This document shows positions 3,107 to 23,228 of a stretch of DNA of 64,000 nucleotides, one piece after another. Each line of letters opens with the position of its first letter. Position 1 is the stretch's first letter. The notes under the pieces were generated by a model. That model saw only the letters and a program-made list of their open reading frames with translations, did no database searches and had not been told where the DNA came from. The stretch is taken from positions 1,302,001 to 1,366,000 of the forward strand of contig NZ_CP046244.1 in the NCBI RefSeq assembly GCF_009735625.1. The letters are read 5' to 3'. Position numbers and translations under genes: made by a program. The DNA is from Moorella glycerini (GTDB lineage Bacteria > Bacillota > DSM-521 > Neomoorellales > Neomoorellaceae).

Positions 3107-3129
3107 GCAGGGAAAAGGAGGAAGTTAAT

Positions 3130-4179
3130 TTGAATTCCTACGAACGCGCCGTGGCTACCCTGAAAGGGGAAATCCCCGACCGGGTGCCAACCTTTGAACT
3201 GATGATCGACCCGGCGGTCATGCAGGCTATCACCGGTAGCGACGATTATGCTGATTTCTGTGAATACGTGGGCCTGGATATAGTCGTCACCGGTACCCCT
3301 TCTAAACTATATGCCGAAAAGGTTATTGATCCTGCCAGCCGCACTATTATCAACGAATGGGGCATTGTCCGCCGCTACAGCGAGCAGGTGGTTTCCATCC
3401 CCCTGGAAGGCCCCATCAAGAAACCTGCCGATATTGAAAATTACACCCCGCCCGATCCCTATGATGAAAGGCGCTATGTCCAGCTCAAAGCCCTGCTGCA
3501 GCGCTTTAAGGGCAAAAAGCTGGTAGGCATGCACCTCCACGACTCTTTTAACTACCCCGTTTACCTGCGGGGCATGGAACAGCTCTTCATGGACCTGATT
3601 ATAAACCCGGAATTGGTGCAAAAACTGGTGCGGATTTCCGTGGATCACAACATCGCCATCGCTGAACGGGCCATCGACCTCGGCGCTGACTTTATCATCC
3701 TGGGCGACGATTACGGCAGCAGCACCAGCACCCTGGTATCGCCGCAGCATTTCCGCGAGTTTTTCCTGCCGGGATTAAAGGAAGTAGTCCAGGCCGTCAA
3801 GGCCAAAGGCGCCTTTTGCCTGAAACACTGCTGTGGTAACATCAACGCCATTGTCGATGATATGGTGACCACCGGCCTGGACGGCCTGCATCCCCTGGAC
3901 CCCGGCGCCGGCATGGACATGCTGGCCGTGAAAAACCGCCATCCGCAACTGACGGTTATCGGCGGCATCAGCTGCGCCGAGCCCCTGACGGAGTACAGCG
4001 TCGAGGAATTGAAGCAGGAGGTCAAAAGGGTGATTGACCGGGTAGCCCCCGGCGGCCGTTATATCCTGGCTTCCAGCAATTCTATCCACAGTAAAGTGAA
4101 ACCGGAAAATTTCCTGGCCATGCAGGAAGCAGCGCGAGAATACGGGAACTATGGAAAGTCCGGTAAGCAGTCAGGGTAG
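3130..4179 (+). CDS. UroD/MtaA-fold protein, paralogue 1
   Basis: A 349-residue protein of the uroporphyrinogen decarboxylase superfamily. The N-terminal PDRVPTFELM motif and overall length fit the methyltransferase branch (MtaA, CmuA and relatives) rather than HemE. TTG 3130 is chosen because AGGAGG lies eight bases before it. Methyltransferase members bind zinc through His-x-Cys and a distal Cys. Here H233-C-C235 is present (HCCGN), but the distal position reads LASSNSIHSKVKPEN, with no Cys. It may therefore use another ligand or do other chemistry. No corrinoid protein gene is adjacent. It ends the DeoR-kinase operon. Two paralogues lie at 7696 and 12540. Confidence 0.75.
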   Translation: MNSYERAVATLKGEIPDRVPTFELMIDPAVMQAITGSDDYADFCEYVGLDIVVTGTPSKLYAEKVIDPASRTIINEWGIVRRYSEQVVSIPLEGPIKKPADIENYTPPDPYDERRYVQLKALLQRFKGKKLVGMHLHDSFNYPVYLRGMEQLFMDLIINPELVQKLVRISVDHNIAIAERAIDLGADFIILGDDYGSSTSTLVSPQHFREFFLPGLKEVVQAVKAKGAFCLKHCCGNINAIVDDMVTTGLDGLHPLDPGAGMDMLAVKNRHPQLTVIGGISCAEPLTEYSVEELKQEVKRVIDRVAPGGRYILASSNSIHSKVKPENFLAMQEAAREYGNYGKSGKQSG

Positions 4180-7646: not shown

Positions 7647-7695
7647 GGCATCTGCGGCTTTAATACATCGAATTTTCTTGAGGAGGTCATTGAAA

Positions 7696-8751
7696 ATGGG
7701 AAAAATGACGAGCCGTGAGCGTTTCCTAAAAGCTGTTTGCGGCGAGCGACCTGATCGAGTGCCGATTTTTGACTTCCTTTTCCAGAAGGATATCTATGAA
7801 GCCACTATTGGACGTCGTCCCAAAAGTTATAATGCCCGGGATGCAGTAGAATGTACTTTGGCCTTAGATCTGGATGCCGTATGGGTGCCTTTTGGAGGTT
7901 TTCAGGGATGGGAACCCAAATACCTTTCTGAGAATATTTACCAAGATGAATGGGGCACCACTCTACAAGTAAGCGAATCTGCGTGGCCGATTGACGCTCC
8001 CATTGATTTCCCGATTAAAGATCGCAAAGACCTCCAGGCATATAAAGCACCCGATCCTCTGGCCCCGGGCCGCCTACAGGAAGTAAAGACTGCGTTAGAC
8101 ATGGTTGGGGGCAAGATAGCCGTATTGGGTGGAGTCCAGGGTCCCCTAACTACTGCATGGTTAATTATGGGGCCCACCAAAATCATGTATAGTTTTTATG
8201 ATGATCCCCAGTTATTACGCGATGTCTTCAAACTTTCTAATGACTTTTTCATCGAAGCAGCGAGGTTATTGGAAGAGGCAGGGATTGATGCCATCTTCGT
8301 CAGTGAAGATTTAGGCGCTAGTGCCGGTCCTCTATTTTCCCTGCAGATGTTCCGGGAATTTATCTTGCCCTACTTTGTCGAACTGGTGTCTTCCATCCAT
8401 GTTCCTGTTTTACTTCATAGCTGCGGTAACATAAATATTTTCCTTGATGACCTGGTAGCCACAGGTATTAAGGCCATCCATCCCCTGCAGCGCACAGCCG
8501 GCATGGATTTAAAGACCGTTAAAGAAAAGTACGGGAATAAAATAGCCATTATCGGTAACGTCGACTCTTCCCGCACCCTGCCGGAAGGGACGGAAGAAGA
8601 TGTGGAACGAGAAGTGCAAGAATGCATCGAAATTGCCGCTCCCGGCGGTGGCTATGTTTTAGCCTCCGATCACTCCCTCCATGATGGCATTCCGGTTAAA
8701 AACATCCTGAAAATGATCGAAGCGGGTAAGAAGTATGGTGTTTATGAATAA
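7696..8751 (+). CDS. UroD/MtaA-fold protein, paralogue 2
   Basis: A 351-residue member of the UroD superfamily. PDRVPIFDFLF near the N-terminus and HSCGNINIFLDDL around residue 241 match the methyltransferase branch. His241-x-Cys243 is kept. The distal zinc-Cys position reads LASDHSLHDGIPVKN, again without Cys, as in paralogue 1. ATG 7696 is chosen because AGGAGG (7681-7686) lies nine bases before it. Codon use is visibly more AT-rich than in neighbours, which may reflect separate acquisition. It stands just before the ABC importer genes. The substrate is unknown; a methyl transfer or a C-C/C-O cleavage on an imported methylated compound is only a guess. Confidence 0.75.
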   Translation: MGKMTSRERFLKAVCGERPDRVPIFDFLFQKDIYEATIGRRPKSYNARDAVECTLALDLDAVWVPFGGFQGWEPKYLSENIYQDEWGTTLQVSESAWPIDAPIDFPIKDRKDLQAYKAPDPLAPGRLQEVKTALDMVGGKIAVLGGVQGPLTTAWLIMGPTKIMYSFYDDPQLLRDVFKLSNDFFIEAARLLEEAGIDAIFVSEDLGASAGPLFSLQMFREFILPYFVELVSSIHVPVLLHSCGNINIFLDDLVATGIKAIHPLQRTAGMDLKTVKEKYGNKIAIIGNVDSSRTLPEGTEEDVEREVQECIEIAAPGGGYVLASDHSLHDGIPVKNILKMIEAGKKYGVYE

Positions 8752-8784: not shown

Positions 8785-10293
8785 TTGCCTGATAGCCCCT
8801 ATATCCTGGAAATGCGATCCATTTGCAAAAGTTTTCCAGGTGTCCAGGCTTTAAAAAATGTCGACCTAAAAGTGAAACGGGGCGAAATTCACTGCCTTCT
8901 GGGGGAGAATGGTGCCGGGAAGTCGACCCTTATTAAGATTCTCGCCGGTGTCTATCCCATGGATGCCGGGCAAATAATCGTGAACGGCCATGAAGTTACT
9001 ATTAACAGCCGTCGTGACGCCCAGAATTTGGGTATCAGCTTTATCTTCCAGGAACTTAATGTCGTTAATCAGCTAACAGCCGCTCAGAACCTGACCTTGG
9101 GAGAAGAAAAACACCGTTGGGGCGTTATTAGCCGGCGGGAAGAAATAGCCATTGCCCGCAGCCATTTGCAGGAGCTAGGTATCGAACTTGACCTGCAGGC
9201 CAGGGTAGGTAACATGACTACCTCTCAGAAACAGATGCTCCTCATCGCCAAAGCGGTATCGACCCAGGCCAAGATAATTGTTATGGATGAGCCCACAGCA
9301 GCCCTGCCGGAAAAAGAAGTGGCCATCCTGTTTAATACCGTTAAAAGGTTGCAGCGTAAAGGAATTACTTTTATTTTCGTATCCCACCGCCTGCAGGACA
9401 TCTTCCAGATAGGGGAAAGCTTCACGGTATTGCGGGATGGGGAAAATGTAGGCACGGGTCGGATTGCCGAAATTACGGAAACGGAACTCATCAACCTGAT
9501 GGTCGGCCGTAAAATAGAAAGCCTCTATTATTGGGAACCCCGGCCAATAGGACGAGAGGTATTGCGATTGGAAAACCTCTCCGCCGTCAGCCTGTTGCAG
9601 GATATCAGCTTTAGCTTACACGCAGGTGAAATATTGGGGGTGGCCGGGTTGGCAGGCAGCGGTAAAAGCGAACTGGCCAAAGCCATTTTTGGCGTCAACA
9701 GGATAACCGGCGGCAGGATGTACTTGGACGGACAGCCCTTCCTTCCGGGAAGCCCGCGCGAGGCTATTGTTAGGGGCATCGCCCTGGTGCCCGAAGAAAG
9801 GCGTAGCGAAGGTATTGTCGGCGTTTTAAGCGTGCAGGACAACTTGTGCCTGGCCTGTCCGGGGCAAATCAGTTCTGTCGGCGTTTTAAAGAAAAAAGCC
9901 GAAAAAGCCCGTGCCCTCAACTTGATCAGGAAGCTGGATATCAAAACCCATAGCCCGCAGCAGCAGGTAGCCAACTTGAGCGGAGGTAACCAGCAGAAGG
10001 TGGTATTAGGTAAATGGCTGGAAAGCAGCACCCGTATCTACCTTATGGATGAACCTACAAGGGGGATAGACGTCGGCGCCAAGGGCGAGATCTACAAGCT
10101 AATCAATAATCTGGCGCGGGAGGGGGCGGCCGTTCTCATCTGTTCATCGGAGCTACCCGAACTCTTGGGCGTGTGCGACCGTATTTTGGTTATGCGTGAA
10201 GGCAGGTTGGCGGGCATCCTCTCCCGCGAAGAAGCAAACCAGGCCCGCATCTTGAGCCTGGCTATTGGAGGAGAACAAAAAAATGCGAGTTAA
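8785..10293 (+). CDS. Sugar ABC transporter ATP-binding protein (RbsA/MglA type)
   Basis: A 502-residue protein with two fused ABC domains, as in RbsA, XylG and MglA. The first has GENGAGKST (Walker A), a degenerate signature region and IVMDEPTAAL (Walker B). The second has GLAGSGKSE, the LSGGNQQKV signature and YLMDEPTRGID. In this family the second site is usually the degenerate one for hydrolysis. It drives import with the permease and binding protein that follow. TTG 8785 is preceded by AGGAGGGG. The next gene overlaps it by 11 bases, showing translational coupling. Confidence 0.93.
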   Translation: MPDSPYILEMRSICKSFPGVQALKNVDLKVKRGEIHCLLGENGAGKSTLIKILAGVYPMDAGQIIVNGHEVTINSRRDAQNLGISFIFQELNVVNQLTAAQNLTLGEEKHRWGVISRREEIAIARSHLQELGIELDLQARVGNMTTSQKQMLLIAKAVSTQAKIIVMDEPTAALPEKEVAILFNTVKRLQRKGITFIFVSHRLQDIFQIGESFTVLRDGENVGTGRIAEITETELINLMVGRKIESLYYWEPRPIGREVLRLENLSAVSLLQDISFSLHAGEILGVAGLAGSGKSELAKAIFGVNRITGGRMYLDGQPFLPGSPREAIVRGIALVPEERRSEGIVGVLSVQDNLCLACPGQISSVGVLKKKAEKARALNLIRKLDIKTHSPQQQVANLSGGNQQKVVLGKWLESSTRIYLMDEPTRGIDVGAKGEIYKLINNLAREGAAVLICSSELPELLGVCDRILVMREGRLAGILSREEANQARILSLAIGGEQKNAS

Positions 10294-11299
10294 AGGTAAA
10301 AACCTAAACCAATTAATGCTAGTGGCGATCCTCATCGGTATCTCTGCCATCTTCAGCGCTTTATCTCCGTCGTTTTTAACCACCGTCAATGTCATGAATA
10401 CCATCCGTCAGGTAGCAATGATTTCTATTGTCGCTTCGGCGGCCACTCTGGTCATGATTGCCCGCGGCCTGGATATTTCTGTGGGCGGTACCTTGGCCTT
10501 AACCGGCGTTATCTATGCCAGCCTGGCCACTAAAGGCGTCCCACTGAGTTTAGCCCTGTTAGTAGCCTGCTTGGCCGGCACGATGGTAGGAGTTATCAAC
10601 GGCGCACTGACAGTAGGTTTAAAGATTAATCCTGTCATCGCCACCTTGGGCACAATGTATGCCACCCGCGGCCTGGCTTTCCTGTATTCCGGGGGTGTGG
10701 CTGTGGTCAACGGCTTACCGGCCAACTTCAGCAACCTGGGCCGGGGTTATATAGGGCCATTTCCTACGCCTATCATTATTATGCTGATTGTTTTCCTTAT
10801 CTTCCACTTTCTCCTCAATAACACCCTGCTGGGCAAATATACCTATGCTGTCGGGGGCAACCCGGAAACAGCCATTCTTTCCGGCATCCCGGTAGCTATG
10901 GTAACCTTTATTCTCTACACCCTTGTTGGATTAATGACAGGTTTAAGTGGGGCGATAATGGCCTCTCGTTTGGGTTCCGGCCAGCCCAACATCGGTATGG
11001 GTTTTGAATTTGACATTATTCTGGCCGTTCTCCTGGGCGGTACCAGCCTTGCCGGCGGCGAAGGCACGGTGTTAGGTACCCTTATCGCCACGGTAATCGT
11101 CGGCGTCCTGGCCAATGGGCTCAATCTTCTGGGTGTGCATACCTTCTACCAATACATTATCAAAGGCGTGGTCCTAGTAGCGGCCGTGGTCATTGACATG
11201 CAGCTCAAGGGCCAGGGCGTCATTCGCGTGGGTAAAATGGTACCGGCAGGGAAGTTCAAACTTGAGGGGGGTGAGGCGCTGAAGGAAAAAAATAGGTAA
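10283..11299 (+). CDS. Sugar ABC transporter permease (RbsC type)
   Basis: A 338-residue integral membrane protein with eight or more hydrophobic segments from residue 9 on. It contains the family loop ARGLDISVGGTLALTG and the glycine-rich GGTSLAGGEGTVLG coupling region typical of BPD_transp_2 (RbsC/XylH/MglC) permeases. ATG 10283 is chosen because GGAGGAG lies within the end of the ATPase gene at normal spacing. It forms the membrane channel of the importer. A hydrophilic C-terminal tail of about 30 residues is unremarkable. Confidence 0.92.
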   Translation: MRVKGKNLNQLMLVAILIGISAIFSALSPSFLTTVNVMNTIRQVAMISIVASAATLVMIARGLDISVGGTLALTGVIYASLATKGVPLSLALLVACLAGTMVGVINGALTVGLKINPVIATLGTMYATRGLAFLYSGGVAVVNGLPANFSNLGRGYIGPFPTPIIIMLIVFLIFHFLLNNTLLGKYTYAVGGNPETAILSGIPVAMVTFILYTLVGLMTGLSGAIMASRLGSGQPNIGMGFEFDIILAVLLGGTSLAGGEGTVLGTLIATVIVGVLANGLNLLGVHTFYQYIIKGVVLVAAVVIDMQLKGQGVIRVGKMVPAGKFKLEGGEALKEKNR

Positions 11300-11397
11300 A
11301 TACGAGCAGGCAAGGTTGTAGAATGTAAAGGTTTATTCAGGAATGGTAGGAACAAGTACAGGACCCAATCCGAATATTGTTATGGGGAGGTTTCACT

Positions 11398-12468
11398 ATG
11401 AAAAATGCCAAATGGGTTTTATTGACCCTCGTAGTAGCTTTATTAGTAGCCTTGATAGTTGGATGCGGCCAGAAACAGGCTTCGAATTCCGGTACATCGG
11501 GGCCACAGCAAGCACAGCAAACGCAGAAAAAGCTCAAGATTGGCTATATTTATTTAACCCTGGAGCATCCGTATTACCAGGCTCATCAGAAATGGACGCA
11601 GAAATGGGCTAAAGATATGGGGATTGATCTAGTCGAACTCGACGGTAAAATGGATGCCGGTACAATGACCAACCAGATTGAAAACCTAGTGGCACAAAAA
11701 GTTGATGGGATTGTTTATTGTTTGGTCAATCCTGCCTCCGGCGCTTCTGATATTAATTATGCCCAACAAAACGGCATCCCCATAATTAGTTTCGCCATTA
11801 AGCACGGCAACGCGGCTAAAGCTCCTTTCGTTGGCATTGATGAATTAACGGCAGGGAAAATGGTTGGTAAAGCAGCAGCGGAAAAATTTAAACAGCTTTT
11901 CCCGAATAAAAAAGCTAAAATAGCTTTAATTAGAATGCCGGGTGTGGAGGCTACCGAGAACCGGGCCAACGGTTTCGTAGAAGGCTTTAAATCGGTTATT
12001 AGCGATGCTACTGTAGTTGCTGAAGTTGATGGTGGCGGTGTTCGTGATAAGTCTATGGCTGGTATGGAAGCTATTATCCAAGCGCATCCGGAGCTAAATG
12101 TGGTATATGGGATTAATGGTGATAGTGCGCTGGGCGCTCTGGCAGCATTGGAAGGAGCCGGTAGAGGAACTATAAAGACTGAATTGGTAGTTAGTCATGA
12201 TGGCTCCGAACCGGAAATATTGAAGTTAATCAACCCGGATAGTGCGCTGAAAGTATCTATTGCTAACCAACCCAAAGAATTATCTAAGGCCACATTGGAT
12301 ACTATCTTAGAAGTCATTAACAAAAAGCGGGATATGAAAAATACGGATAACATTTATGTTCCCGCCAAAGTACTGGAGCCTGATATTGATAAGTTACAGC
12401 AGTTTATTAAAGAAGAATACTGGTCGACTACCGACCTTAAAGCAGAAGCAGCGAAGTTCAAAAAATAG
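11398..12468 (+). CDS. Sugar ABC transporter substrate-binding lipoprotein (RbsB type)
   Basis: A 356-residue secreted lipoprotein. A positively charged start is followed by a hydrophobic stretch and the lipobox LIVGC at about residues 18-22, so the mature protein is anchored outside the cell membrane. The rest is a type 1 periplasmic binding fold (KIGYIYLTLEHPYYQAHQKW, VDGIVYCLVNPAS, ENRANGFVEGF), the sugar-binding cluster B class. ATG 11398 follows GGGGAGG. Codon use is AT-richer than in the permease gene. A strong stem-loop after the stop probably protects this part of the transcript. The ligand is not evident; ribose-type pentoses, galactose, inositol and autoinducer-2 are all bound by this family. 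Confidence 0.92.
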   Translation: MKNAKWVLLTLVVALLVALIVGCGQKQASNSGTSGPQQAQQTQKKLKIGYIYLTLEHPYYQAHQKWTQKWAKDMGIDLVELDGKMDAGTMTNQIENLVAQKVDGIVYCLVNPASGASDINYAQQNGIPIISFAIKHGNAAKAPFVGIDELTAGKMVGKAAAEKFKQLFPNKKAKIALIRMPGVEATENRANGFVEGFKSVISDATVVAEVDGGGVRDKSMAGMEAIIQAHPELNVVYGINGDSALGALAALEGAGRGTIKTELVVSHDGSEPEILKLINPDSALKVSIANQPKELSKATLDTILEVINKKRDMKNTDNIYVPAKVLEPDIDKLQQFIKEEYWSTTDLKAEAAKFKK

Positions 12469-12520: not shown

Positions 12521-12539
12521 AAAACAAGGGGTGACGCAC

Positions 12540-13619
12540 ATGCAAACCCTGACTTCCCTTGAACGTTGTCTAGCCGCTCTCCGTTTTGAGGTCCCGGACC
12601 GGGTGCCGGTGGTGCCCCAGTCGTTTATGGTGGCCTGCGCTACGGCCGGGTACAAAATCGGCGCAATCAATAAAAGCGGCAGGCTCATGGCCGAAACACA
12701 TCTTGTCAGCCAGGCCAAATACGGCTACGACGGCGTCGTCATCGATATAGATGATGCCACCCTGGCGGAGGCCTGCGGCGCCAAAGTTATCTGGCGGGAA
12801 AATGATGTGGCTATAGTGGATGAGGAAGATGTGGTTTTAAAGGACCTGCGGCAGATTGACGACCTCCCTTTGCCTGATCCCTACAGTTCCGGGCGCCTGC
12901 CGGAATGGCTGGAGGCCACCCGGATTTTGCGGGAAAAGATCGGCGACCATGTTTTCATTATGGGACGGGCCGATCAGGGCCCTTTTGACCTGGCCTGCCT
13001 CCTCCGGGGGGCGCAGCAGTTTATGATTGACCTGGTAACCGAACCGCCGGAACTCATCTGGAAGGTCCTGGACTACTGCCGGCGGGCCGGGACGCTATTT
13101 GCCAAGGCCCAGAAGGATGCCGGGGCCCACGCCACTTCCATTGGCGATTCTTTTGCCGGCCCCAACCTCATTTCCCCGGCCATGTTCCGCCAGTTCGCCC
13201 TGGAGCATGAGATTACCATGACTAAAGAAGTCCAGGATTACGGCATTCCTTTCTCCATTCATATTTGCGGTGATACGACGGCCATCCTGGAAGATATGGC
13301 CTCTACCGGCGCCCGGATCCTGGAGCTTGACTGGCAGGTCGATATGGGCTATGCCAAACGAGTAGTTGGTAACCGGGCCGTTCTTATGGGCAATATCAAT
13401 CCCAGCGATCCCCTGGTCTGGGGCACACCGGAAGCTATTGAAGCCCAGGCAAAGAATATCATTGAGGCCACCGGGGGTATTGGTCTTTTCCTGAGTTCGG
13501 GCTGTGCCATGGGTTACAATACACCGGCGGCCAATATGCGGGCCTTGTGTGAGGCCGGTAAAAAGTATGGTAGCTATGAACGGTTAATGGAGTTGGAGGA
13601 GAAAAGGAGTAAGGCTTAA
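12540..13619 (+). CDS. UroD/MtaA-fold methyltransferase-like protein, paralogue 3
   Basis: A 359-residue member of the UroD superfamily. Unlike its two neighbours it keeps a full His-x-Cys-xn-Cys set: H241-I-C243 (HICGD) and C322 in LSSGCAMGYNTPAANM. These are the zinc ligands that activate a thiol in MtaA/MtbA-type corrinoid methyltransferases, so methyl-transfer chemistry is plausible here. PDRVPVVPQSF marks the N-terminus. ATG 12540 follows AAGGGGTGA; GTG 12531 overlaps that site and is less likely. Its stop overlaps the start of the DUF4432 gene (TAATG). No corrinoid protein or CoM pathway gene is adjacent, so the methyl donor and acceptor are unknown. Confidence 0.75.
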   Translation: MQTLTSLERCLAALRFEVPDRVPVVPQSFMVACATAGYKIGAINKSGRLMAETHLVSQAKYGYDGVVIDIDDATLAEACGAKVIWRENDVAIVDEEDVVLKDLRQIDDLPLPDPYSSGRLPEWLEATRILREKIGDHVFIMGRADQGPFDLACLLRGAQQFMIDLVTEPPELIWKVLDYCRRAGTLFAKAQKDAGAHATSIGDSFAGPNLISPAMFRQFALEHEITMTKEVQDYGIPFSIHICGDTTAILEDMASTGARILELDWQVDMGYAKRVVGNRAVLMGNINPSDPLVWGTPEAIEAQAKNIIEATGGIGLFLSSGCAMGYNTPAANMRALCEAGKKYGSYERLMELEEKRSKA

Positions 13620-14758: not shown

Positions 14759-15061
14759 GTGATTTTTTTGCGTCCAGCAGTAGGTATTATTGAAGCCATT
14801 GGTTTAACGGCAGCCATCCAGGCGGCCGATACGGCCGTCAAGGCGGCTGACGTTCAGCTCCTGGGTTATGAACTTTCCAAGGGCAAGGGTATGGTTACGG
14901 TACGCTTCAGCGGCGATGTCGGCGCCGTTACGGCGGCCCTGGAGGCCGCCGTGGCGGCAGCCAGGGAAGTAAGTGGCGTTTATGCCTCGCTAGTTCTCCC
15001 CAAACCCCATGAAGAACTGGACAAGCTATTGTACCGTCAGAAGAAGGATAATGTTGACTAG
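14759..15061 (+). CDS. Bacterial microcompartment shell protein, hexamer type (BMC-H 1)
   Basis: A 100-residue protein with a single BMC domain: AVGIIEAIGLTAAIQAADTAVKAA, then FSGDVGAVTAALEAA, then VLPKPHEELDKLL. Six copies form a flat hexamer that tiles shell facets. The start is either GTG 14759 (AGGAG just upstream) or TTG 14768, which gives an N-terminus closer to other BMC-H proteins. The C-terminus extends about ten residues past the fold. It is the first gene of the shell/enzyme operon and is followed by the aldolase after 18 bases. Confidence 0.93.
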   Translation: MIFLRPAVGIIEAIGLTAAIQAADTAVKAADVQLLGYELSKGKGMVTVRFSGDVGAVTAALEAAVAAAREVSGVYASLVLPKPHEELDKLLYRQKKDNVD

Positions 15062-15079: not shown

Positions 15080-16105
15080 ATGCCACTAATGACTCTAAAA
15101 GAAGTCCTGGCTGACGCCGACCGGCGCCATTACGGCGTGGGGGCCTTTAATGTCCTTAACGTCGAGATGCTGAATGCCATTGTAAGCGCGGCTGAGGAAG
15201 AGCAGGCGCCGGTGATCCTGGCTTTTGCCGAGGTGCACCAGAAGTATATCGCCATGGAAACCATTGCGCCGCTGATGCTTAAAGTCGCCCGGGAAGCCAC
15301 GGTGCCGGTGGTGGTTCATTACGACCACGGCCAGCAGTTTGAAAACATTATCAAGATCATGCATTACGGTTTTACCTCGGTAATGTTTGACGGCTCGACC
15401 CTGCCCTATGAAGAGAATGTCCGCCGCACCCAGGAAGTGGTGCGGATCGCCAGGATCCTGGGCGTTTCCGTGGAGGCCGAACTGGGGCATGTCGGCGGGG
15501 CGGAAGGGGGGCCGGGCGGGGAAGATGACCCGCAGGCCTGTTATACTGATGTCAACCAGGCGGCCGATTTCGTGGCCCGGACCGGTGTCGATGCCCTGGC
15601 GGTAGCCATCGGTACCGCCCACGGCGTTTACCGTACCCGCCCAAAGCTCGATTTGGAGCGCCTGGCGGCCATCAAAAAACGGGTGGGGATCCCCCTGGTC
15701 CTTCACGGCGGTTCGGGGTTGAGTGACGACGATTTTCGCCAGGCCATTGCCCGGGGGATAGCCAAGATCAATATCTTTACCGATATGTCCCTGGCAGCCG
15801 TCGATCAATTGAAAACGAAGTTGTGCACCTGTAGCCAGGGTAGCTGCGATGCGTCCTGTGCTGACAACTGCCTGCTCCAGCGTGATTACAGCGACGGTTT
15901 GCCCGGGGACAGCATGGAAGACCTGGTCCAGCGGGTAGTGGTCCGGGTATTGCGGGAGTTGGCGCAGAAAGAGAAAGCCCAGGCCCACCCGGTACAAAGT
16001 TACCCGGATTTGATTTTAGCGACCACGGCCGGGATTAAAGCCGAGGTTAAACGTAAGATGCGCCTTTTTGGCAGTAACGGCAAGGCCCTTGCCTTTGGCA
16101 AGTAG
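15080..16105 (+). CDS. Class II fructose/tagatose-bisphosphate-type aldolase with internal insert
   Basis: A 341-residue class II aldolase of the FbaA/GatY/IolJ superfamily, which cleaves a ketose phosphate to dihydroxyacetone phosphate and an aldehyde using zinc. VVVHYDHG (Asp82, zinc His83), VEAELGHVGG, GTAHGVY (zinc His181) and LVLHGGSG (zinc His209) are intact. The usual C-terminus IKAEVKRKMRLFGSNGKA is present. Between NIFTDMS and that end lies an insert of roughly 45 residues not seen in ordinary family members. It has five Cys (249, 251, 256, 260, 264) and then SMEDLVQRVVVRVLREL (279-295), an amphipathic helix resembling encapsulation peptides. It sits between two shell genes, so it is very likely BMC cargo. 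The aldehyde product is unknown; lactaldehyde, acetaldehyde, glycolaldehyde and malonate semialdehyde are options. Confidence 0.9.
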   Translation: MPLMTLKEVLADADRRHYGVGAFNVLNVEMLNAIVSAAEEEQAPVILAFAEVHQKYIAMETIAPLMLKVAREATVPVVVHYDHGQQFENIIKIMHYGFTSVMFDGSTLPYEENVRRTQEVVRIARILGVSVEAELGHVGGAEGGPGGEDDPQACYTDVNQAADFVARTGVDALAVAIGTAHGVYRTRPKLDLERLAAIKKRVGIPLVLHGGSGLSDDDFRQAIARGIAKINIFTDMSLAAVDQLKTKLCTCSQGSCDASCADNCLLQRDYSDGLPGDSMEDLVQRVVVRVLRELAQKEKAQAHPVQSYPDLILATTAGIKAEVKRKMRLFGSNGKALAFGK

Positions 16106-16168
16106 AATGCGGTGGGACTTGCTACATTTTGCTTAAGCAAAAACATTTGTTTAAGGAGGCATTTTCCA

Positions 16169-16447
16169 ATGATTAATGGTGCTCTGGGTATGGTGGAAAC
16201 CAAGGGTTTGACCGCGGCTATTGAGGCGGCCGATGCTATGGTGAAGGCAGCCAGCGTCAGCTTGCTGGGTATGGAGAAGATCGGCTCCGGGATGGTGACG
16301 GTTTTCGTGGCCGGCGATGTCGGTGCGGTCAAGGCAGCCACCGAAGTCGGCGCCCAGGCCGCCCAGAAGGTTGGCGAGCTGATAGCCGTCCATGTCATTC
16401 CCCGGCCCCATGCTGACCTGGAAAAAATCCTGCCGGCCATGGCATAG
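16169..16447 (+). CDS. Bacterial microcompartment shell protein, hexamer type (BMC-H 2)
   Basis: A 92-residue single BMC-domain protein very close to PduA/EutM/Ccm[41 protein letters not shown], and [14 protein letters not shown]. It is likely the main facet hexamer. ATG 16169 follows AAGGAGG. The segment after the KIGSG turn lines the central pore of such hexamers. It is followed by pduL after 31 bases. Confidence 0.95.
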
Positions 16448-16478: not shown

Positions 16479-17114
16479 GTGCTGCCACAGGAAGAATTAC
16501 TGGCCATCATCACCAGGGCGGTCCTGGCTGAACTAAAGGAGCAAAAGCGTTTCATCCCGGTAGGTGTTTCCGCCCGCCATCTCCACATCAGCCGCGCCGA
16601 CCTGGATGTCCTGTATGGCCCTGGTTATCAATTAAAAAAGTTAAGGCCCCTCATGGCCGGTGAGTTTGCTGCCGAGGAGACAGTGACCCTGGTGGGTCCT
16701 AATATGCGGGCCCTGGAGCACGTCCGTATCCTCGGGCCGGAGCGCCAACAGACCCAGGTCGAGCTGGCCCGGACGGATGCCGTCCGCTTAGGGCTCAATC
16801 CCCCGGTGCGCCAGTCGGGGGACCTGGCAGGTTCAGCGGGGTTAGTAATTGTAGGCCCTAAGGGAGCCGTGGTCCTGCGGGAAGGTTGCATTATTGCCAA
16901 CCGCCACATTCATATGACCCCGGCTGATGCCCGGGCCCTGGGCCTGAAAGATAATGTCTACGTTGATGTACGTGCCGTAGGGGAAAAGGGTGCCGTTTTA
17001 CACCAGGTACAGGTACGGGTTCATGAAAAGTTTCGTACCGAACTGCACATCGACACCGATGATGCCAACGCCCTGGGGTTACGCTGCGGCGACCGCGTCA
17101 TGGTGGTAGCGTGA
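16479..17114 (+). CDS. pduL: Phosphate acyltransferase PduL (phosphotransacylase)
   Basis: A 211-residue PduL-family phosphotransacylase, which turns acyl-CoA plus phosphate into acyl phosphate and frees CoA inside the compartment. The two beta-barrel domains each show a zinc His-x-His: SARHLHIS (H34, H36) and ANRHIHMTPADA (H143, H145). Residues 1-21 (QEELLAIITRAVLAELKEQK) form an amphipathic helix like an encapsulation peptide, as in BMC-associated PduL. GTG 16479 follows GAGGGAG. Its partners are the aldehyde dehydrogenase at 17431 and the acetate kinase at 20844. Confidence 0.94.
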   Translation: MLPQEELLAIITRAVLAELKEQKRFIPVGVSARHLHISRADLDVLYGPGYQLKKLRPLMAGEFAAEETVTLVGPNMRALEHVRILGPERQQTQVELARTDAVRLGLNPPVRQSGDLAGSAGLVIVGPKGAVVLREGCIIANRHIHMTPADARALGLKDNVYVDVRAVGEKGAVLHQVQVRVHEKFRTELHIDTDDANALGLRCGDRVMVVA

Positions 17115-17129
17115 AAGCTGGCGAGATAA

Positions 17130-17399
17130 ATGTTAATCGGTAAAGTTATCGGCTCAGTAGTATCCACCCGGAAACACGACGGCCTGGTAGGCTTGAAGCT
17201 CCTGATCATCAGGCCGTTAAACAGCCGCTCCCGGCACCAGGACCTGGTAGCTGTCGACAATATTGGCGCCGGCACAGGAGAAACCGTGCTGGTGACCACA
17301 GGCAGCAGCGCCCGCCTGGCGATCGATAACCCCCGGGCGCCGGTAGATGCCGCCGTGGTAGGCATTGTCGACAACCCGGCCGGGCTGTCGTCCGGGTAA
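17130..17399 (+). CDS. EutN/CcmL-type microcompartment vertex protein (BMC-P)
   Basis: An 89-residue protein of the EutN/CcmL/PduN family. MLIGKVIGSVVSTRKHDGLVG, KLLIIRP, LVAVDNIGAGTGETVLVTTGSSAR and DAAVVGIVD are all hallmarks. Pentamers cap the vertices of the shell. It starts 15 bases after pduL with only a weak ribosome-binding site and ends 31 bases before the aldehyde dehydrogenase start. It is the only vertex protein in the locus. Confidence 0.94.
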   Translation: MLIGKVIGSVVSTRKHDGLVGLKLLIIRPLNSRSRHQDLVAVDNIGAGTGETVLVTTGSSARLAIDNPRAPVDAAVVGIVDNPAGLSSG

Positions 17400-17430
17400 C
17401 TACTGCTGCCTTTTAAAAGGGGTAATAACT

Positions 17431-18867
17431 TTGCAGGCAGGAGAAGAACGGATTGCCCAGATTGTAGCGGAAGTGCTAAAAAAATTACAGCCCTATCTGC
17501 TTCCCGGCCAGCCGGTACCCGCACAGCCGGCGGCCGCAGCGGCGCCGGCTAATCTACCCGGTGAACAAGGCATCTTTAATGATCTGGAAGCGGCCCTGGC
17601 GGCAGCCAAAAAGGCCCAGGCCGAATTGATGGCCCTGGACAGGGAAACCAGGGAGAAGATTATCGCCGCCATCCGCCAGATCTTCCTGGAAAATGCCGAG
17701 AAGCTGGCCCGCCTGGCGGTGGAAGAAACCGCCATGGGACGTTATGAAGATAAGATCGTCAAGAATAAGAACGCGGCTTTGCTGACGCCGGGTATGGAGG
17801 ATTTGGAGCAAAGGGTCGACGCCGGTACGACGGGGATGATTTTTAGCGAGCGCGGTCCCTTTGGCTTGATAGTCTCTATTGAGCCGACCACCAACCCGGT
17901 GGCTTCGCCGGTCAATCATGGCCTGGCCATGATTGCCGCCGGCAACAGCGTTTGCTTTGCTCCCCATCCCCGGGCCGTCAAATGCTGCCACGAGGTGGTA
18001 CGCCTTTTTAACGAGGCGATCTATAAGGCCGGCGGTCCCGTTAATTTAGTTGTAACTACCCGTGATGTCAGCCTGGATAACGTCCACCGGGCCATGGCCT
18101 CACCCCTGGTAAACCTGATCGTAGCCACCGGCGGCCACGCCCTGGTGGAGGCTGCCTTGGCCAGCGGGAAGAAATGCATTGCCGGCGGTCCCGGCAACCC
18201 GCCGGTGGTGGTGGATGAAACGGCCGACATTGAGCTGGCGGCCCGGAATATCATTCTGGGGGCGGCCTTTGATAATAACCTCCTCTGTATCGCGGAGAAA
18301 GAGGTTTTTGTCGTGGACCAGGTGGCGGATGCCCTGCTGCTGGCCATGCAGCGCCAGGGCAATTATGTGGCCAACAACCTGGAAATCCAGCAACTGACCA
18401 AACTCCTGGTGGTGGACGGTAAGATTAACAGCCGCTTTATCGGCCAGAATCCATCCCGGATCTTAAAAGAGATCGGGGTCCGGGTTGGGGATGAGGTGCG
18501 GGCGGTAGTTATGGAAGTACCCCTGGATCACCCCCTCGTTACCCTGGAACAGCTGATGCCCGTTCTGCCGGTGGTCAGGGTCAAGGATTTTGCCACGGCA
18601 TTAAAAATTTCCCGGGAAGTGGAACACGGCTTCCGGCATACGGCCGCCATTTACACCCGCGATTATACCCGGGCGGCGGCCTTCGCCCGGGCCATGGAAG
18701 CCACCCTGACGGTGGTCAATGTGCCCACCTATGCCGGCCTGGGCGGCGAAGGCATCGGCAAGCCAACCATGACCGTGGCCGGCCCCACAGGGGAGGGTAT
18801 TACTTCACCCCGGACTTATACCCGCGAGCGTAACGTCGTCTTTGGTGGCCAGTTAACAATCGTTTAG
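17431..18867 (+). CDS. CoA-acylating aldehyde dehydrogenase (PduP/EutE type)
   Basis: A 478-residue aldehyde dehydrogenase that oxidises an aldehyde to acyl-CoA with NAD. Residues 1-20 (EERIAQIVAEVLKKLQPYL) form an amphipathic helix joined by an Ala/Pro linker (PVPAQPAAAAAP), the classic encapsulation peptide of BMC signature enzymes. The catalytic Cys is C286 in NNLLCIAEK, and PTTNPVASPVNHGL and GGPGNPPVVVDE are family motifs. TTG 17431 is chosen because it follows AAAGGGGT and gives the peptide at the very start. It would oxidise the aldehyde released by the aldolase. PduP versus EutE cannot be separated by eye. Confidence 0.93.
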   Translation: MQAGEERIAQIVAEVLKKLQPYLLPGQPVPAQPAAAAAPANLPGEQGIFNDLEAALAAAKKAQAELMALDRETREKIIAAIRQIFLENAEKLARLAVEETAMGRYEDKIVKNKNAALLTPGMEDLEQRVDAGTTGMIFSERGPFGLIVSIEPTTNPVASPVNHGLAMIAAGNSVCFAPHPRAVKCCHEVVRLFNEAIYKAGGPVNLVVTTRDVSLDNVHRAMASPLVNLIVATGGHALVEAALASGKKCIAGGPGNPPVVVDETADIELAARNIILGAAFDNNLLCIAEKEVFVVDQVADALLLAMQRQGNYVANNLEIQQLTKLLVVDGKINSRFIGQNPSRILKEIGVRVGDEVRAVVMEVPLDHPLVTLEQLMPVLPVVRVKDFATALKISREVEHGFRHTAAIYTRDYTRAAAFARAMEATLTVVNVPTYAGLGGEGIGKPTMTVAGPTGEGITSPRTYTRERNVVFGGQLTIV

Positions 18868-18882
18868 ACCGGAGTGAGCTTA

Positions 18883-20226
18883 ATGACCGGGCCGGAATTA
18901 GTAGCCAAAGTTTTTCAGGCGGGAGTGGTCGGGGCCGGCGGGGCCGGGTTTCCAACCCATTTTAAAATTAAAAACCGGGCGGAAATCGTCATTGCCAACG
19001 GGGCCGAGTGCGAGCCCCTCCTCCAGGTGGACCAGCAGCTCCTGGTCAGGGAGCGAAGGGCAGTTTTAAGGGCTCTGCAGGCAATAAAAGAGGCTGTAGG
19101 GGCCACGGAAGCTTACCTGGCCTTGAAACCCAAGTATAAAGAAGCAGTCAGTGCTTTAGAAGCAGTTTTGCCGGGGTATCCGGGCCTGACGATCAAGTTG
19201 CTGCCCGATGTTTACCCGGCCGGGGACGAGCAGGTGCTGGTGTACGAGGTCACCGGGCGGGTTGTCCCTCCGGGGGGAATTCCCCTCCAGGTAGGCGTGG
19301 TGGTTTTGAACATCGAAACCCTGGTTAATGTATATGCAGCCATGCATGACGAACCGGTAACAGCGAAGTATCTTACCGTTGCCGGCGCGGTGGCCCGCCC
19401 CGTGACCGTCCGGGTTCCGGTGGGAACACCGGTGAAGGAGGTCCTGGACCTGGCCGGCGGCCCGCAGGTAGAAGATTTTTTGGTCCTGGACGGCGGCCCC
19501 ATGATGGGTAAGCCAATCGCCCCTGAACACGATGTGGTGACCAAGACCACCAAGGGGCTACTGGTGCTTCCGGCCAGCCATCCCCTGGCGGCGAAAAAGC
19601 AATTGACCCTGGCCAGGGCCCTGGGGCGAACAATGGCGGCCTGTTGCCAGTGCCGGGAATGTACCGACCTTTGCCCCCGCTACCTGCTGGGTCACCCCCT
19701 GGAACCCCACCGGACCATGCGGGCGGTGGCTTATGGGATTACCAGTGATAGCCGGGGTATTACCGGGGCTATGTTGTGTTCCGAGTGCGGGTTGTGTGAA
19801 CTTTTCGCCTGCACCCTGGAACTCTCGCCCCGCCAGGTTAATGTCGCCATAAAAAAGGAACTGCGGCGCCAGGGCTACCGGCCGGGCCGGCCAGGGCAGC
19901 AACCCCTAGTTAACCCCTGGCGGGACGGGCGCCAGGTACCTACCGGCCGCCTGGTAGCCAGGCTGGGGCTGGGGGCTTATAACCGTAAAGCCCCCCTGAC
20001 CCTGGAATTGTACCGTCCCCGGCTGGTGAGGTTGCCTTTACAGCAAGGCTCTGGTGTGGCCGCCACTCCGCTGGTCAAGAGCGGTGACCGGGTGGCCAGG
20101 GGCCAGCTCATCGCTGCTGTTTCCGAAGAGCAAATCGGGGCCAACCTCCATGCCAGCATTGCCGGTACCGTCCAGGCGGTGGGCGAGGCCATCATAATCC
20201 GGGCCGGGGAGGTGGGTGAAGATTGA
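18883..20226 (+). CDS. PduS/RnfC-like Fe-S flavoprotein of the microcompartment
   Basis: A 447-residue protein with the RnfC/PduS layout. The N-terminal glycine-rich GVVGAGGAGFPTHFK and NGAECEPLLQVDQ bind flavin and NADH in RnfC and Nqo1-like proteins. An SLBB region follows, then two 4Fe-4S motifs: CCQCRECTDLCP near residues 252-263 and CSECGLCELFAC near 297-308. PduS is described as a cobalamin reductase that binds PduT. Here no B12-dependent diol dehydratase is encoded, so a role in passing electrons out of the lumen is at least as likely. ATG 18883 follows GGAG. Its stop overlaps the start of the PduT-like gene. Confidence 0.88.
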   Translation: MTGPELVAKVFQAGVVGAGGAGFPTHFKIKNRAEIVIANGAECEPLLQVDQQLLVRERRAVLRALQAIKEAVGATEAYLALKPKYKEAVSALEAVLPGYPGLTIKLLPDVYPAGDEQVLVYEVTGRVVPPGGIPLQVGVVVLNIETLVNVYAAMHDEPVTAKYLTVAGAVARPVTVRVPVGTPVKEVLDLAGGPQVEDFLVLDGGPMMGKPIAPEHDVVTKTTKGLLVLPASHPLAAKKQLTLARALGRTMAACCQCRECTDLCPRYLLGHPLEPHRTMRAVAYGITSDSRGITGAMLCSECGLCELFACTLELSPRQVNVAIKKELRRQGYRPGRPGQQPLVNPWRDGRQVPTGRLVARLGLGAYNRKAPLTLELYRPRLVRLPLQQGSGVAATPLVKSGDRVARGQLIAAVSEEQIGANLHASIAGTVQAVGEAIIIRAGEVGED

Positions 20227-20771
20227 AACACGCCATCGGTTTATTGGAATTGAACAGCCTGGCCGCGGGGGTCATGGCAGCCGACACCATGGTCAAAACG
20301 GCGGCGGTGGATCTCCTCCAGGCCACCATCATGTGCCCGGGGAAATATATCATCTTAGTTGCCGGGGATGTCAGCGCGGTCCAGAGCGCCGTCGCAGCAG
20401 GTAAAGCAGGGTTCGCGGCGAACATCATCAGCAGCCTGATCCTGGCCAACGTGCACCCGGATGTCTTCCCGGCCCTCAGGGGGGCGGTAGCAGCGACGGC
20501 AATGGGTGCCCTGGGTTTGATCGAATCCTTTTCGGTGGCGGCGGCCATCCAGGCCGCCGATGCCGCGGCCAAAGCGGCCGTAGTGCAACTCCTGGAGATT
20601 CGCCTGGCCCGGGGTATGGGCGGCAAAGCCTTTGTTCTTTTTACGGGGGATGTAGGTGCGGTCACAGTGGCGGTGGCCGCCGGCGCCCGCCAGGCGGAGG
20701 CCGAGGGTATGCTGGCCGGCACGGCGGTAATTGCCAATCCCGACGCCCGGGTCTGGGAGCAGGTGCTGTAG
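20223..20771 (+). CDS. Tandem-domain shell protein of PduT type (BMC-T)
   Basis: A 182-residue protein with two BMC domains: residues about 1-90 (AIGLLELNSLAAGVMAADTM) and 93-182 (ALGLIESFSVAAAIQAADAA). Trimers of such proteins are pseudo-hexamers. Cys38 lies in QATIMCPGKYI, the position at which PduT trimers hold a 4Fe-4S cluster in the pore. With the PduS-like gene just upstream and overlapping (the TTG start at 20223 lies over the TGA stop), this pair probably forms an electron conduit through the shell. GGGGAGGTGG is its ribosome-binding site. Confidence 0.92.
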   Translation: MKHAIGLLELNSLAAGVMAADTMVKTAAVDLLQATIMCPGKYIILVAGDVSAVQSAVAAGKAGFAANIISSLILANVHPDVFPALRGAVAATAMGALGLIESFSVAAAIQAADAAAKAAVVQLLEIRLARGMGGKAFVLFTGDVGAVTVAVAAGARQAEAEGMLAGTAVIANPDARVWEQVL

Positions 20772-20843
20772 AAGGTTAAACTGGCGGGCGGGTAGGGAAA
20801 GTATAAGTAAGTGCTGCTAGCTACCAGTGAAAGAGGGTTTTGG

Positions 20844-22052
20844 ATGCAGATTTTAGTTCTCAATTGCGGCGGTTCATCCATGAAGTACCAGCTTCTGGCC
20901 ATGCCGGCAGAAAGGGTACTGGCCAAAGGGAGCATTGACCGGCTGTTTAGCCCCCGGGCAGAGATCAGCCACCAGGTGGCGGGCCGGGAAGCAGCCCGGG
21001 AGCCCTTGCCCGGCGCGACTTTTGCCGACGGCATCCGCTGGCTGGTTACCGCATTGCGGGAGGAGGGTATCATTGCCGGGGTCACGGATATTGAAGCCAT
21101 TGCCCATAAACTGGCCCACGGCGGGGAGAAATTCCAGCAGCCGGTGTTGATTGACGACGAAGTCCTGGCTACCCTTACCAGCCTCTCCAGCCTGGCGCCG
21201 GTTCACCTACCCCCGGCGGTGGCAGGCATCAGGGTGTGCCAGGAATTGTTGCCGGGGGTACCCCAGTATGCTGTCTTTGAAACCAACTTCCACCAGACTG
21301 TACCGCCTTACGCCTATATCTACGGCCTGCCCTACGAGTGGTACGAACAGTACGGCATTCGCAAGTATGGCTTCCACGGTACCTCCCACCGCTATGTAGC
21401 AGAGACGGCAGCTGGAATCCTGGGACGGGAACTCCGGGAATTAAAGCTTATCTCCTGCCACCTGGGCAGCGGCACCTCCGTGGCGGCCATCAAATACGGC
21501 CGGTCGGTAGACATCAGTAGCGGACTGACACCCCAGTCGGGGACCATTATGTCCACGCGGCCGGGGGATTTTGACCCCTGGGTCTTTCCCTTGATCATGG
21601 AACTGACCGGCATGACGCCCGCCGCAGTTAATGAAGTCATGGTTAAAAAGGGCGGCCTGCTGGGTATTTCCGGCTTGAGCGGCGATATGCGCGACCTGGA
21701 GGCCGCGGCCAGAGAAGGCCACCAGCGGGCCCAACTGGCTATCGATGTCTTTTGCTACCAGGTAAAGAAGTATATCGGTGCCTTTGCCGCCGCCATGAAC
21801 GGGCTGGACGCCTTAATATTTACCGGCGGCATCGGCGAACGGTCCCCTGCCATCCGCGCCGGGATCTGCCGGGATCTTGATTTTTTGGGGATTGAGTTAG
21901 ACGAAGAGAAAAACAAACACCGGCCCCGGCTGGATATCCTCTCCAGGGACAGTGCCCCGGTGGCCATCCTGGCCATTGACAGCAACGAAGAATTGATGGT
22001 GGCCCGGCAGGTAATTGATTTTAGGCATACTTTATGCTCCATATGTCCATAA
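20844..22052 (+). CDS. ackA: Acetate kinase
   Basis: A 402-residue acetate/propionate kinase of usual length. LVLNCGGSSMKYQLL at the N-terminus, YGIRKYGFHGTSHRYV, CHLGSGTSVAAIKYGRSVDIS and TGGIGERSP are the family signatures. It converts acyl phosphate from PduL to the acid and ATP. ATG 20844 follows AGAGGG. As the last gene of the BMC run it gives the energy yield of the pathway, probably in the cytosol, since I see no N-terminal targeting helix. It could also serve the general acetyl-phosphate pool. Confidence 0.95.
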   Translation: MQILVLNCGGSSMKYQLLAMPAERVLAKGSIDRLFSPRAEISHQVAGREAAREPLPGATFADGIRWLVTALREEGIIAGVTDIEAIAHKLAHGGEKFQQPVLIDDEVLATLTSLSSLAPVHLPPAVAGIRVCQELLPGVPQYAVFETNFHQTVPPYAYIYGLPYEWYEQYGIRKYGFHGTSHRYVAETAAGILGRELRELKLISCHLGSGTSVAAIKYGRSVDISSGLTPQSGTIMSTRPGDFDPWVFPLIMELTGMTPAAVNEVMVKKGGLLGISGLSGDMRDLEAAAREGHQRAQLAIDVFCYQVKKYIGAFAAAMNGLDALIFTGGIGERSPAIRAGICRDLDFLGIELDEEKNKHRPRLDILSRDSAPVAILAIDSNEELMVARQVIDFRHTLCSICP

Positions 22053-22217
22053 AGCGGAGAGGGTCCGGAATAAGGCGTTAAGTATAGTTTAATTTATAGT
22101 AGCTTTGCAAGGGCAGCCCAACTTTAAACTGCTTATGGTAGTCCTGCGATAAACAAGTTATGGGATAGGAAGGACTTGTTTCGCCAGCAAAATTCTATCA
22201 CCTTGGAGGAAGGTTTC

Positions 22218-23228
22218 ATGCCGGCAAAAACCCTCGATGTCGTCTCCGTAGGCGAGATTTTAATTGATTTCGTGGGCAGCCCCAAAGGGTGTCCGCTGGC
22301 GGAAGTGACCGATTTTCGCCGCGCTGCCGGCGGCGGGCCGGCCAACGTTGCCGTGGGGGTGGCGCGCCTGGGCGGCCGCGCCGGTTTCATCGGTAAGGTG
22401 GGCCGGGACGCCTTCGGGGACCATTTACAGAAGGTCCTGGAGGAAAACAATGTGGATACGCGGGGCCTCCTGCGGGACAGGGAGGCCAACACCACCCTGG
22501 TTTTTGTTGCCCTGAATGAAAAGGCGGTGCCGGAGTTCGTCTTCTTCCGTCACGGGACAGCCGACACCAGGCTGGACCCGGCCGAACTGCCGCGGGAGGT
22601 CCTGGCGGCGACCCAGATCCTGCACTTCAGCTCCGTTTCCCTGACGGTGGAACCGGCTAGGAGCGCCACCCTGGAGGCCGTCCGCCTGGCCAGGGCGGCC
22701 GGGGCAGTTATATCCTTTGACCCCAACCTGCGCCTGTCCCTCTGGCCGGACCGGGAGACGGCCAGAAGAAACATCCTGCAGGCCGCCGCTAGAGCGGACA
22801 TCATCAAGCTCAACGCAGAAGAGCTGGTATTTTTAACCGGTTGTCCGGAGATGGCCGCTGGAATAGCAGCGCTGTTGTCCGGGATAGCGCCGGGGCCGCG
22901 GCTAATCGCTGTTACCCGGGGCGCGGCCGGGGCCGTCCTGGCCCGACAGGGGTTGCAGGTAGAGATACCGGCCCTACCGGTAACCGCTGTGGATACCACC
23001 GGTGCCGGGGATGCCTTCATGGCCGGAATGCTAACCGCCCTGGCCGGGATTTCAGGGGAGGGCCGGGATTTAACGGATCTGGAAGAAAGGGAACTGCACC
23101 ATGCCGGTCGCCTGGCAGCCACTGCCGCGGCCCTTGCCTGCACCCGCCCGGGCGCCATCCCGGCGTTGCCGACGCAAGCGGAAGTGGAAGAAGAGATACA
23201 GCGTAACTTAAGAAGAGTAGGGTTTTAA
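22218..23228 (+). CDS. PfkB-family carbohydrate kinase (fructokinase-like)
   Basis: A 336-residue ribokinase-fold kinase. SVGEILIDFVG, GGGPANVAVGVARLGG, GKVGRDAFGDH and DTTGAGDAFMAGML place it with fructokinases and 2-keto-3-deoxygluconate kinases. ATG 22218 is preceded by TTGGAGGAAGG at good spacing. It lies 165 bases beyond acetate kinase and may be transcribed separately, though I see no clear promoter. Its 3' end overlaps the convergent vapC gene by 21 bases. Substrate unknown. Confidence 0.87.
   Translation: MPAKTLDVVSVGEILIDFVGSPKGCPLAEVTDFRRAAGGGPANVAVGVARLGGRAGFIGKVGRDAFGDHLQKVLEENNVDTRGLLRDREANTTLVFVALNEKAVPEFVFFRHGTADTRLDPAELPREVLAATQILHFSSVSLTVEPARSATLEAVRLARAAGAVISFDPNLRLSLWPDRETARRNILQAAARADIIKLNAEELVFLTGCPEMAAGIAALLSGIAPGPRLIAVTRGAAGAVLARQGLQVEIPALPVTAVDTTGAGDAFMAGMLTALAGISGEGRDLTDLEERELHHAGRLAATAAALACTRPGAIPALPTQAEVEEEIQRNLRRVGF

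Follow-up and report, generated by a model that had tools for sequence, protein, structure and literature searches.

The 64-kb stretch of the Moorella glycerini genome analysed here (the window) contains a bacterial microcompartment (BMC) locus in which the genes for a PduS-like and a PduT-like protein lie side by side behind an aldehyde dehydrogenase (AldDH) gene. We propose, with a probability of roughly 0.5, that the locus encodes a metabolosome for a sugar 1-phosphate that has no NADH sink of its own, and that its electrons leave through PduS and PduT. Electron export by this pair from BMCs that lack an alcohol dehydrogenase (ADH) is an already published hypothesis, for other bacteria. New here are a host with three ADH-less BMCs, the pattern found in a survey of Bacillota, and a predicted signature aldolase of the PF01116 (YdjI-like) family with an internal insert resembling an encapsulation peptide.

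The PduS-like and PduT-like proteins

The pduS-like gene is on the forward strand at 18883..20226. The open reading frame is 18874-20226, and the ATG at 18883 is the better start because a GGAG ribosome-binding site precedes it at good spacing. The protein contains PF01512, PF10531, PF13534 and PF13375, each above the Pfam cut-off, which are the four domains given in the literature as the definition of PduS (PMC6325248). It has the motifs GAGGAGFP (glycine-rich), NGAECEP, CCQCRECTDLCP and CSECGLCELFAC; both the FMN/NADH glycine motif and the two tetracysteine motifs are present. The closest solved structures are RnfC subunits (7zc6, E 2e-50), and the PduS of Moorella stamsii DSM 26217 is 97% identical. 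These features suggest a protein that would oxidise NADH and bind 4Fe-4S clusters. Its AlphaFold model was poor (mean pLDDT 46.7) and was left unused.

The pduT-like gene follows on the same strand at 20223..20771, with a TTG start and a four-base overlap with the stop of pduS. The product is a tandem (BMC-T) shell protein of two PF00936 domains, whose closest solved structures are 3nwg (E 7e-49) and PduT itself (3pac, 3n79). Cys38, in CPGKY, aligns with the PduT cysteine of 3pac, and the trimer may thus hold a 4Fe-4S cluster in its pore. The protein falls short of the TIGR02526 equivalog cut-off (114.5 vs 250.3 bits), and is therefore called PduT-like. The initial annotation had described 18883-20771 as a PduS/RnfC-like protein with flavin, NADH and two 4Fe-4S motifs, its gene overlapped by that of a tandem shell protein in which Cys38 occupies the Fe-S position of PduT. 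On re-reading, these positions proved exact, and the domains, motifs and match to 7zc6 agree with that description.

The adjacent pair is also present in M. stamsii and in the majority of the further loci retrieved for the survey described below, and is thus not a product of chance. Some variants were seen. The gene for PduS is frameshifted by a one-base deletion in another BMC locus of the host (locus C, L010 11470-12833), broken by 137 extra bases in L092 (7710-9244) and split in L100 (7783-9326); these may be decay or assembly errors, and intact copies are found in relatives. L095 (10747-18144) has two genes for PduS and three for PduT-like proteins; at the pore, one of the latter reads CPGY for CPGK. 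In a Moorella relative (G008), a pduS/pduT of the type of the window locus (locus A) survives just as fragments (L103 9189-9826), likely a remnant.

Organisation of the locus

All the genes of the locus are on the forward strand and were assigned using profiles, with a peptide matrix for the encapsulation-peptide-like stretches. In order, they encode a BMC-H shell protein (14759..15061), a class II aldolase of the fructose-bisphosphate type, the candidate signature enzyme (15080..16105), a second BMC-H (16112..16447), the phosphotransacylase PduL (16479..17114), a EutN/CcmL vertex protein (BMC-P, 17130..17399), a CoA-acylating AldDH of the EutE/PduP type (17365..18867, with the true start probably a GTG near 17419), PduS, PduT, a member of the acetate/propionate kinase family (20811..22052) and a PfkB-family sugar kinase (22176..23228). 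PduL and AldDH both have an N-terminal encapsulation-peptide-like stretch. Of the complete core, AldDH and phosphotransacylase are therefore present, and ADH is absent from the locus. Neither ferredoxin nor flavodoxin, nor a redox partner of another kind, was seen among the named products of the operon; the pair and its electron acceptor are therefore not encoded together.

Upstream lie a DUF4432 protein (PF14486, 13619..14695), a URO-D-like protein and a sugar ABC transporter (8785..12468), in which the ATPase and permease were recognised by reading the ORF list and the substrate-binding protein by profile. URO-D/MtaA-like proteins adjoin sugar BMC operons more than once (window 3073-4179, 7678-8751 and 12531-13619; L010 3447-4571 and 6843-7985), and our guess is that they demethylate O-methyl sugars. 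The order from BMC-H to acetate kinase is identical by profile in a genome from another genus of the same family (G374), with flanking ORFs that resemble those of the window as judged from their first residues, and the window-type order is also found in M. stamsii (L025 and L102, the same contig as judged by length).

The candidate signature aldolase

The window aldolase belongs to PF01116, and among solved structures it is most closely related to E. coli YdjI (6ofu, E 3e-60), which acts on ketose-1-phosphates. Compared to YdjI it has an insert at approximately residues 248-305, before the last helix, which contains five cysteines and a helix motif resembling an encapsulation peptide. The score of this stretch is 12.0, from a matrix that fails to set C-terminal peptides apart (genuine ones reach 2.5-6.0). 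The AlphaFold model was again poor (mean pLDDT 51.8) and was left unused. The G374 aldolase shares the insert. In another genome, G022, the enzyme is extended at its C-terminus by a segment that contains CQTCGAC and ends in a peptide-like sequence. A glycyl radical enzyme provides a precedent for internal encapsulation peptides (PMC5311937). A literature search outside supplementary files found no paper that joins microcompartment, fructose-bisphosphate aldolase and encapsulation peptide, and the word 'fructose' is absent from PMC8217296 and PMC4207490 as far as their main texts go.

Sixteen PF00596 enzymes from aldolase-type loci were read, 13 of them from the 17 aldolase-type loci of the survey and the host genome, with L104 and L105 of M. 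stamsii also included; 14 of the 16 have C-x2-C-x2-C before the C-terminal peptide, the exceptions being L095 and L096. The same pattern occurs in the PF01116 enzyme of L085. BMC aldolases with two folds that are unrelated to each other thus have a cysteine-rich linker next to a stretch resembling an encapsulation peptide (for example window 15080-16105, L009 15427-16224 and L085 12247-13293), and several Moorella AldDH linkers hold two to three cysteines.

Survey of the Bacillota

A set of 398 genomes from the phylum was searched with the profile NF011927 (BMC-type AldDH). Matches above the cut-off were obtained in 44 genomes, giving 48 loci including the three of the host; the remaining 45 were all retrieved, in most cases with flanks of 10 kb, and screened by profiles. 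L083, which has a masked stretch, was excluded from the tree and from all counts. ADH was left unscored in L071, L086 and L099, which have less than 3.5 kb on one side, and in L082, where Fe-ADHs are at least 12.6 kb away; L058 was scored as ADH-less despite an AdhE 9.5 kb off, as were the short contigs L066, L079 and L089. The pair was left unscored in L076, L084 and L086. Going through the order of G083 added no further genomes to the aldolase sample. The ADH counts come only from a second screen, with profiles built to cover divergent Fe-ADHs. A first screen using tblastn, in which nearly all PduS/PduT loci appeared ADH-less, was discarded after a Pfam search exposed the divergent Fe-ADHs that it had missed.

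An ADH is nearby in 16 of the 43 scorable loci and absent in 27, so that the premise of the initial annotation, that most aldehyde-oxidising BMCs have an internal ADH, fails for this sample. In the AldDH tree (47 rows) the 17 aldolase-type loci form a single clade (SH-aLRT 99); nine of them come from the window's own family. PduS and PduT are encoded in all 17. Only one of the 16 scorable aldolase loci has an ADH (L097, the enzyme having a peptide-like N-terminus). Among the loci with a dehydratase or a glycyl radical enzyme the figure is 14 of 23 (Fisher p 0.0007, with descent ignored). ADHs with peptide-like sequences are also found within L070 and L072.

Scorable loci with the pair comprise 11 with ADH and 26 without; for loci without the pair the numbers are four and zero (p 0.013, descent again ignored). 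Tree-corrected versions of the two tests had no power to reach significance, because they contain only 1 and 2 independent pairs. We count in favour of export that all four scorable pair-negative loci have an ADH, although in two of these (L068 and L087) the AldDH is at most 1.5 kb from a contig end and the absence of the pair is thus not firm, and that both proteins are present in 26 of the 27 scorable ADH-less loci, the exception being L084, which has PduT and no detected PduS. The genome G022 encodes the pair in an aldolase BMC that lacks ADH, and no Fe-ADH match at E 1e-20 was obtained anywhere in it (zinc-ADH was searched in the locus only). The pair is not simply a substitute for ADH, because the 11 scorable loci carry both, as does L026, where it lies beside both an MDR-ADH and an Fe-ADH; a general replacement of ADH by PduS/PduT is ruled out by the same loci. 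In six PduS from non-aldolase loci (L060, L062, L064, L065, L073 and L074), the pattern used for the second tetracysteine motif is not matched.

These loci could also be explained if NAD is recycled outside the organelle, with NADH and NAD+ crossing or leaking through the shell for re-oxidation in the cytosol, and with PduS and PduT merely tuning the redox state. It has been suggested that internal cofactor recycling is possibly not absolutely required (Axen et al., 2014, PMC4207490), and the host genome encodes many cytosolic oxidoreductases. However, such a role does not readily account for the retention of the pair throughout the aldolase clade, or for the pore cysteine, which is present in every PduT-like ORF read across the loci (46 of 47 match C-x-G-[KRSNTQ], and the remaining one is CPGY). 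We therefore consider recycling outside the shell to be unlikely. A broader proposal, which we make with some hesitation and regard as doubtful, is that the aldolase-type metabolosomes of the Bacillota are one lineage that has largely abandoned private NAD recycling. Each would function as a half-cell, in which aldehyde is oxidised inside and electrons rather than alcohol are delivered via the Fe-S cluster in the shell. The cysteine-rich aldolase linkers (CxxCGxC-like in the PF00596 enzymes and one PF01116 enzyme, and the five cysteines of the window aldolase) could then be additional luminal metal or cluster sites.

Alcohol dehydrogenases in the host genome

The host genome (3.56 Mb) has 14 matches to PF00936, which mark three BMC loci. 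All three are aldolase-type, all have PduS/PduT (one pduS being the frameshifted copy) and none has an ADH. Loci B (L009) and C (L010) each encode a PF00596 aldolase, AldDH, PduS, PduT and PduL, and locus C also encodes a fucose isomerase and an FGGY kinase. A segment of 2076 bp with two BMC-H genes and the AldDH is 99.76% identical in DNA between L009 and L010, in contrast to the surrounding genes, which are 82-88% alike; this points to a recent conversion or duplication. An aldehyde:ferredoxin oxidoreductase homologue flanks locus B (L009 1944-3665), and there is an AFOR-like gene near the BMC of L084.

Genome-wide there are five Fe-ADH matches (four above cut-off), nine ADH_N, eight SDR, two AKR and one LDH. 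All of these Fe-ADH, MDR-ADH, SDR, AKR and LDH genes lie outside the window and more than 35 kb from any BMC shell gene; the closest one, an Fe-ADH, is separated from locus C by about 37 kb. The original observation that the locus has no ADH thus extends to the whole window for five dehydrogenase families. The annotation had also asked for a search for a targeted ADH elsewhere in the genome: a recognisable N-terminal encapsulation peptide is present in none of the 13 ADH-family proteins (four Fe-ADH and nine ADH_N), in a scan that is weak for C-terminal peptides. Their N-terminal scores are at most 1.7, compared to 20-22 for PduL and 26-27 for the in-locus MDR proteins of L070 and L072. Only the N-terminal comparison was used; C-terminal peptides are not discriminated (the Fe-ADH C-terminus of L013 scores 8.2), and the null set of the matrix is contaminated by AldDHs.

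These 13 proteins provide candidates for a cytosolic ADH or lactaldehyde reductase that enters the organelle by binding another enzyme, in which case the core would be complete after all. This possibility is counted against export, as is the lack of an acceptor gene in the locus. The missing peptide does not exclude recruitment, because PduQ, the ADH of the Pdu system, is reported to be packaged without a peptide of its own (PMC6325248), and ADHs with peptide-like sequences do occur in the loci L097, L070 and L072. Nevertheless, the distance of all 13 from the shell genes, their lack of an N-terminal peptide, and the genome of G022, where the Fe-ADH search gave no match at E 1e-20, make recruitment distinctly improbable.

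Possible destination of the electrons

The host is a thermophilic acetogen, and its genome encodes an acetyl-CoA synthase (PF03598). RnfC_N was found there only in the three PduS, so that the host has no RnfC of an Rnf complex; this agrees with a published table in which M. glycerini lacks Rnf and has Ech, cytochrome b and menaquinone (PMC8578096). Across the survey, 14 of the scorable ADH-less loci are in genomes with acetyl-CoA synthase and 13 in genomes without it, the corresponding numbers for loci with ADH being five and 11. By family, the ADH-less loci divide into five with and 10 without, and those with ADH into five and eight (counted from the printed table, with f22 and f38 falling in both groups). 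A connection between absence of ADH and acetogenesis was thus rejected, since ADH-less loci occur with nearly equal frequency in genomes that have acetyl-CoA synthase and in those that do not.

The reduction of ferredoxin, CO2 or methylene-THF requires potentials too negative for a donor at +99 mV. That is the value for the cluster of PduT, the sole natural one measured, and the FMN of PduS lies at -150 mV (PMC6325248), which argues against the reductive acetyl-CoA pathway as the destination, unless the Moorella cluster differs; an engineered BMC-T cluster has -370 mV (PMC6325248). Authors working on Bilophila consider +99 mV insufficient even for sulfite reduction (PMC8667426). Of the original suggestion that electrons are passed out to the reductive acetyl-CoA pathway, we therefore retain export through the pair, which is plausible, and find that the genome counts give the destination no support and that the potential is against it.

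Proposed function

On the basis of these observations, we hypothesise that a sugar is imported by the ABC transporter and then phosphorylated, and that the encapsulated YdjI-like aldolase would cleave the ketose-1-phosphate to DHAP and a short aldehyde. AldDH would convert the aldehyde to acyl-CoA with formation of NADH, and PduL and the acetate-kinase homologue would yield the acid and ATP. PduS, seated on PduT, would oxidise the luminal NADH, using FMN and then 4Fe-4S clusters, and the pore cluster of PduT would hand the electrons to a cytosolic acceptor encoded outside the locus. In the Pdu system, NADH reduces the FMN and one cluster of PduS, PduS binds PduT, and PduT has been discussed as a possible conduit for export (PMC6325248). 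That PduS instead retains an older role, in corrinoid reduction (it is the cobalamin reductase of Pdu, PMC6325248, and URO-D/MtaA-like proteins occur in the operon) or in a GRM5-type reduction of lactaldehyde to propanediol (a propanediol-oxidoreductase function was once proposed, PMC3557285), is very improbable, given that no diol dehydratase or glycyl radical enzyme is present in any of the three loci of the genome and no adenosyltransferase among the window products scanned.

Judging from the survey, many BMCs of the Bacillota are likely to be ADH-less, and the aldolase lineage does not seem to follow the usual core model.

Comparison with known systems

Among the closest known systems are the PVM-like and MIC metabolosomes (Axen et al., 2014; Sutter et al., 2021), which have an aldolase-type signature enzyme, AldDH and an incomplete core without AlcDH; PVM-like loci are described as being mostly in Firmicutes. 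These use a class II aldolase of PF00596, whereas that of the window is PF01116, and loci B and C of the host fit the PVM-like type better. With regard to the PVM-like regulator, a DeoR-type gene is located at 1305-2102, about 12.6 kb upstream of the locus. The scan of the locus proteins found neither of the two SPU enzymes, the DeoC-type aldolase (PF01791) and RpiB (PF02502). PVM-like, MIC, SPU and SPU-like loci are described in PMC4207490, current BMC types in PMC8217296 and PMC8156839, and related work in PMC11328732 and PMC6776118.

Within the group of RnfC/NuoF NADH modules, PduS shares its FMN, NADH and Fe-S modules with RnfC, but unlike the RnfC of Rnf it has no partners from an Rnf complex. 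A rnfC-like gene is reported in the eut cluster of Thermacetogenium (PMC6436200). The eut BMC of Listeria also has surplus NADH and a PduT-like protein suspected to be a redox carrier, and is genetically linked to extracellular electron transfer; it differs in having the ADH EutG, a genetic link to Ndh2, and Fe(III) as acceptor (PMC8547011).

The isethionate BMC of Bilophila wadsworthia likewise has no ADH gene and has PduS and PduT homologues, and its authors propose that electrons are transferred out through the pair. It has a glycyl radical enzyme, an AdhE-type acetaldehyde dehydrogenase and a sulfite-respiring host, and its PduS was found with BMCs by proteomics (PMC8667426).

The PDU metabolosome matches the pair itself in the four domains and two tetracysteine motifs of PduS, the adjacency of the genes and the pore Cys38. 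It also has the ADH PduQ and a B12-dependent dehydratase served by PduS, which the window locus does not. The ADH of PDU and the B12 role of its PduS tend to blur the question whether electrons cross the BMC shell via PduT. The Moorella host could test the pair without those confounders, because it has three aldolase-type BMCs, no nearby ADH gene and no other RnfC.
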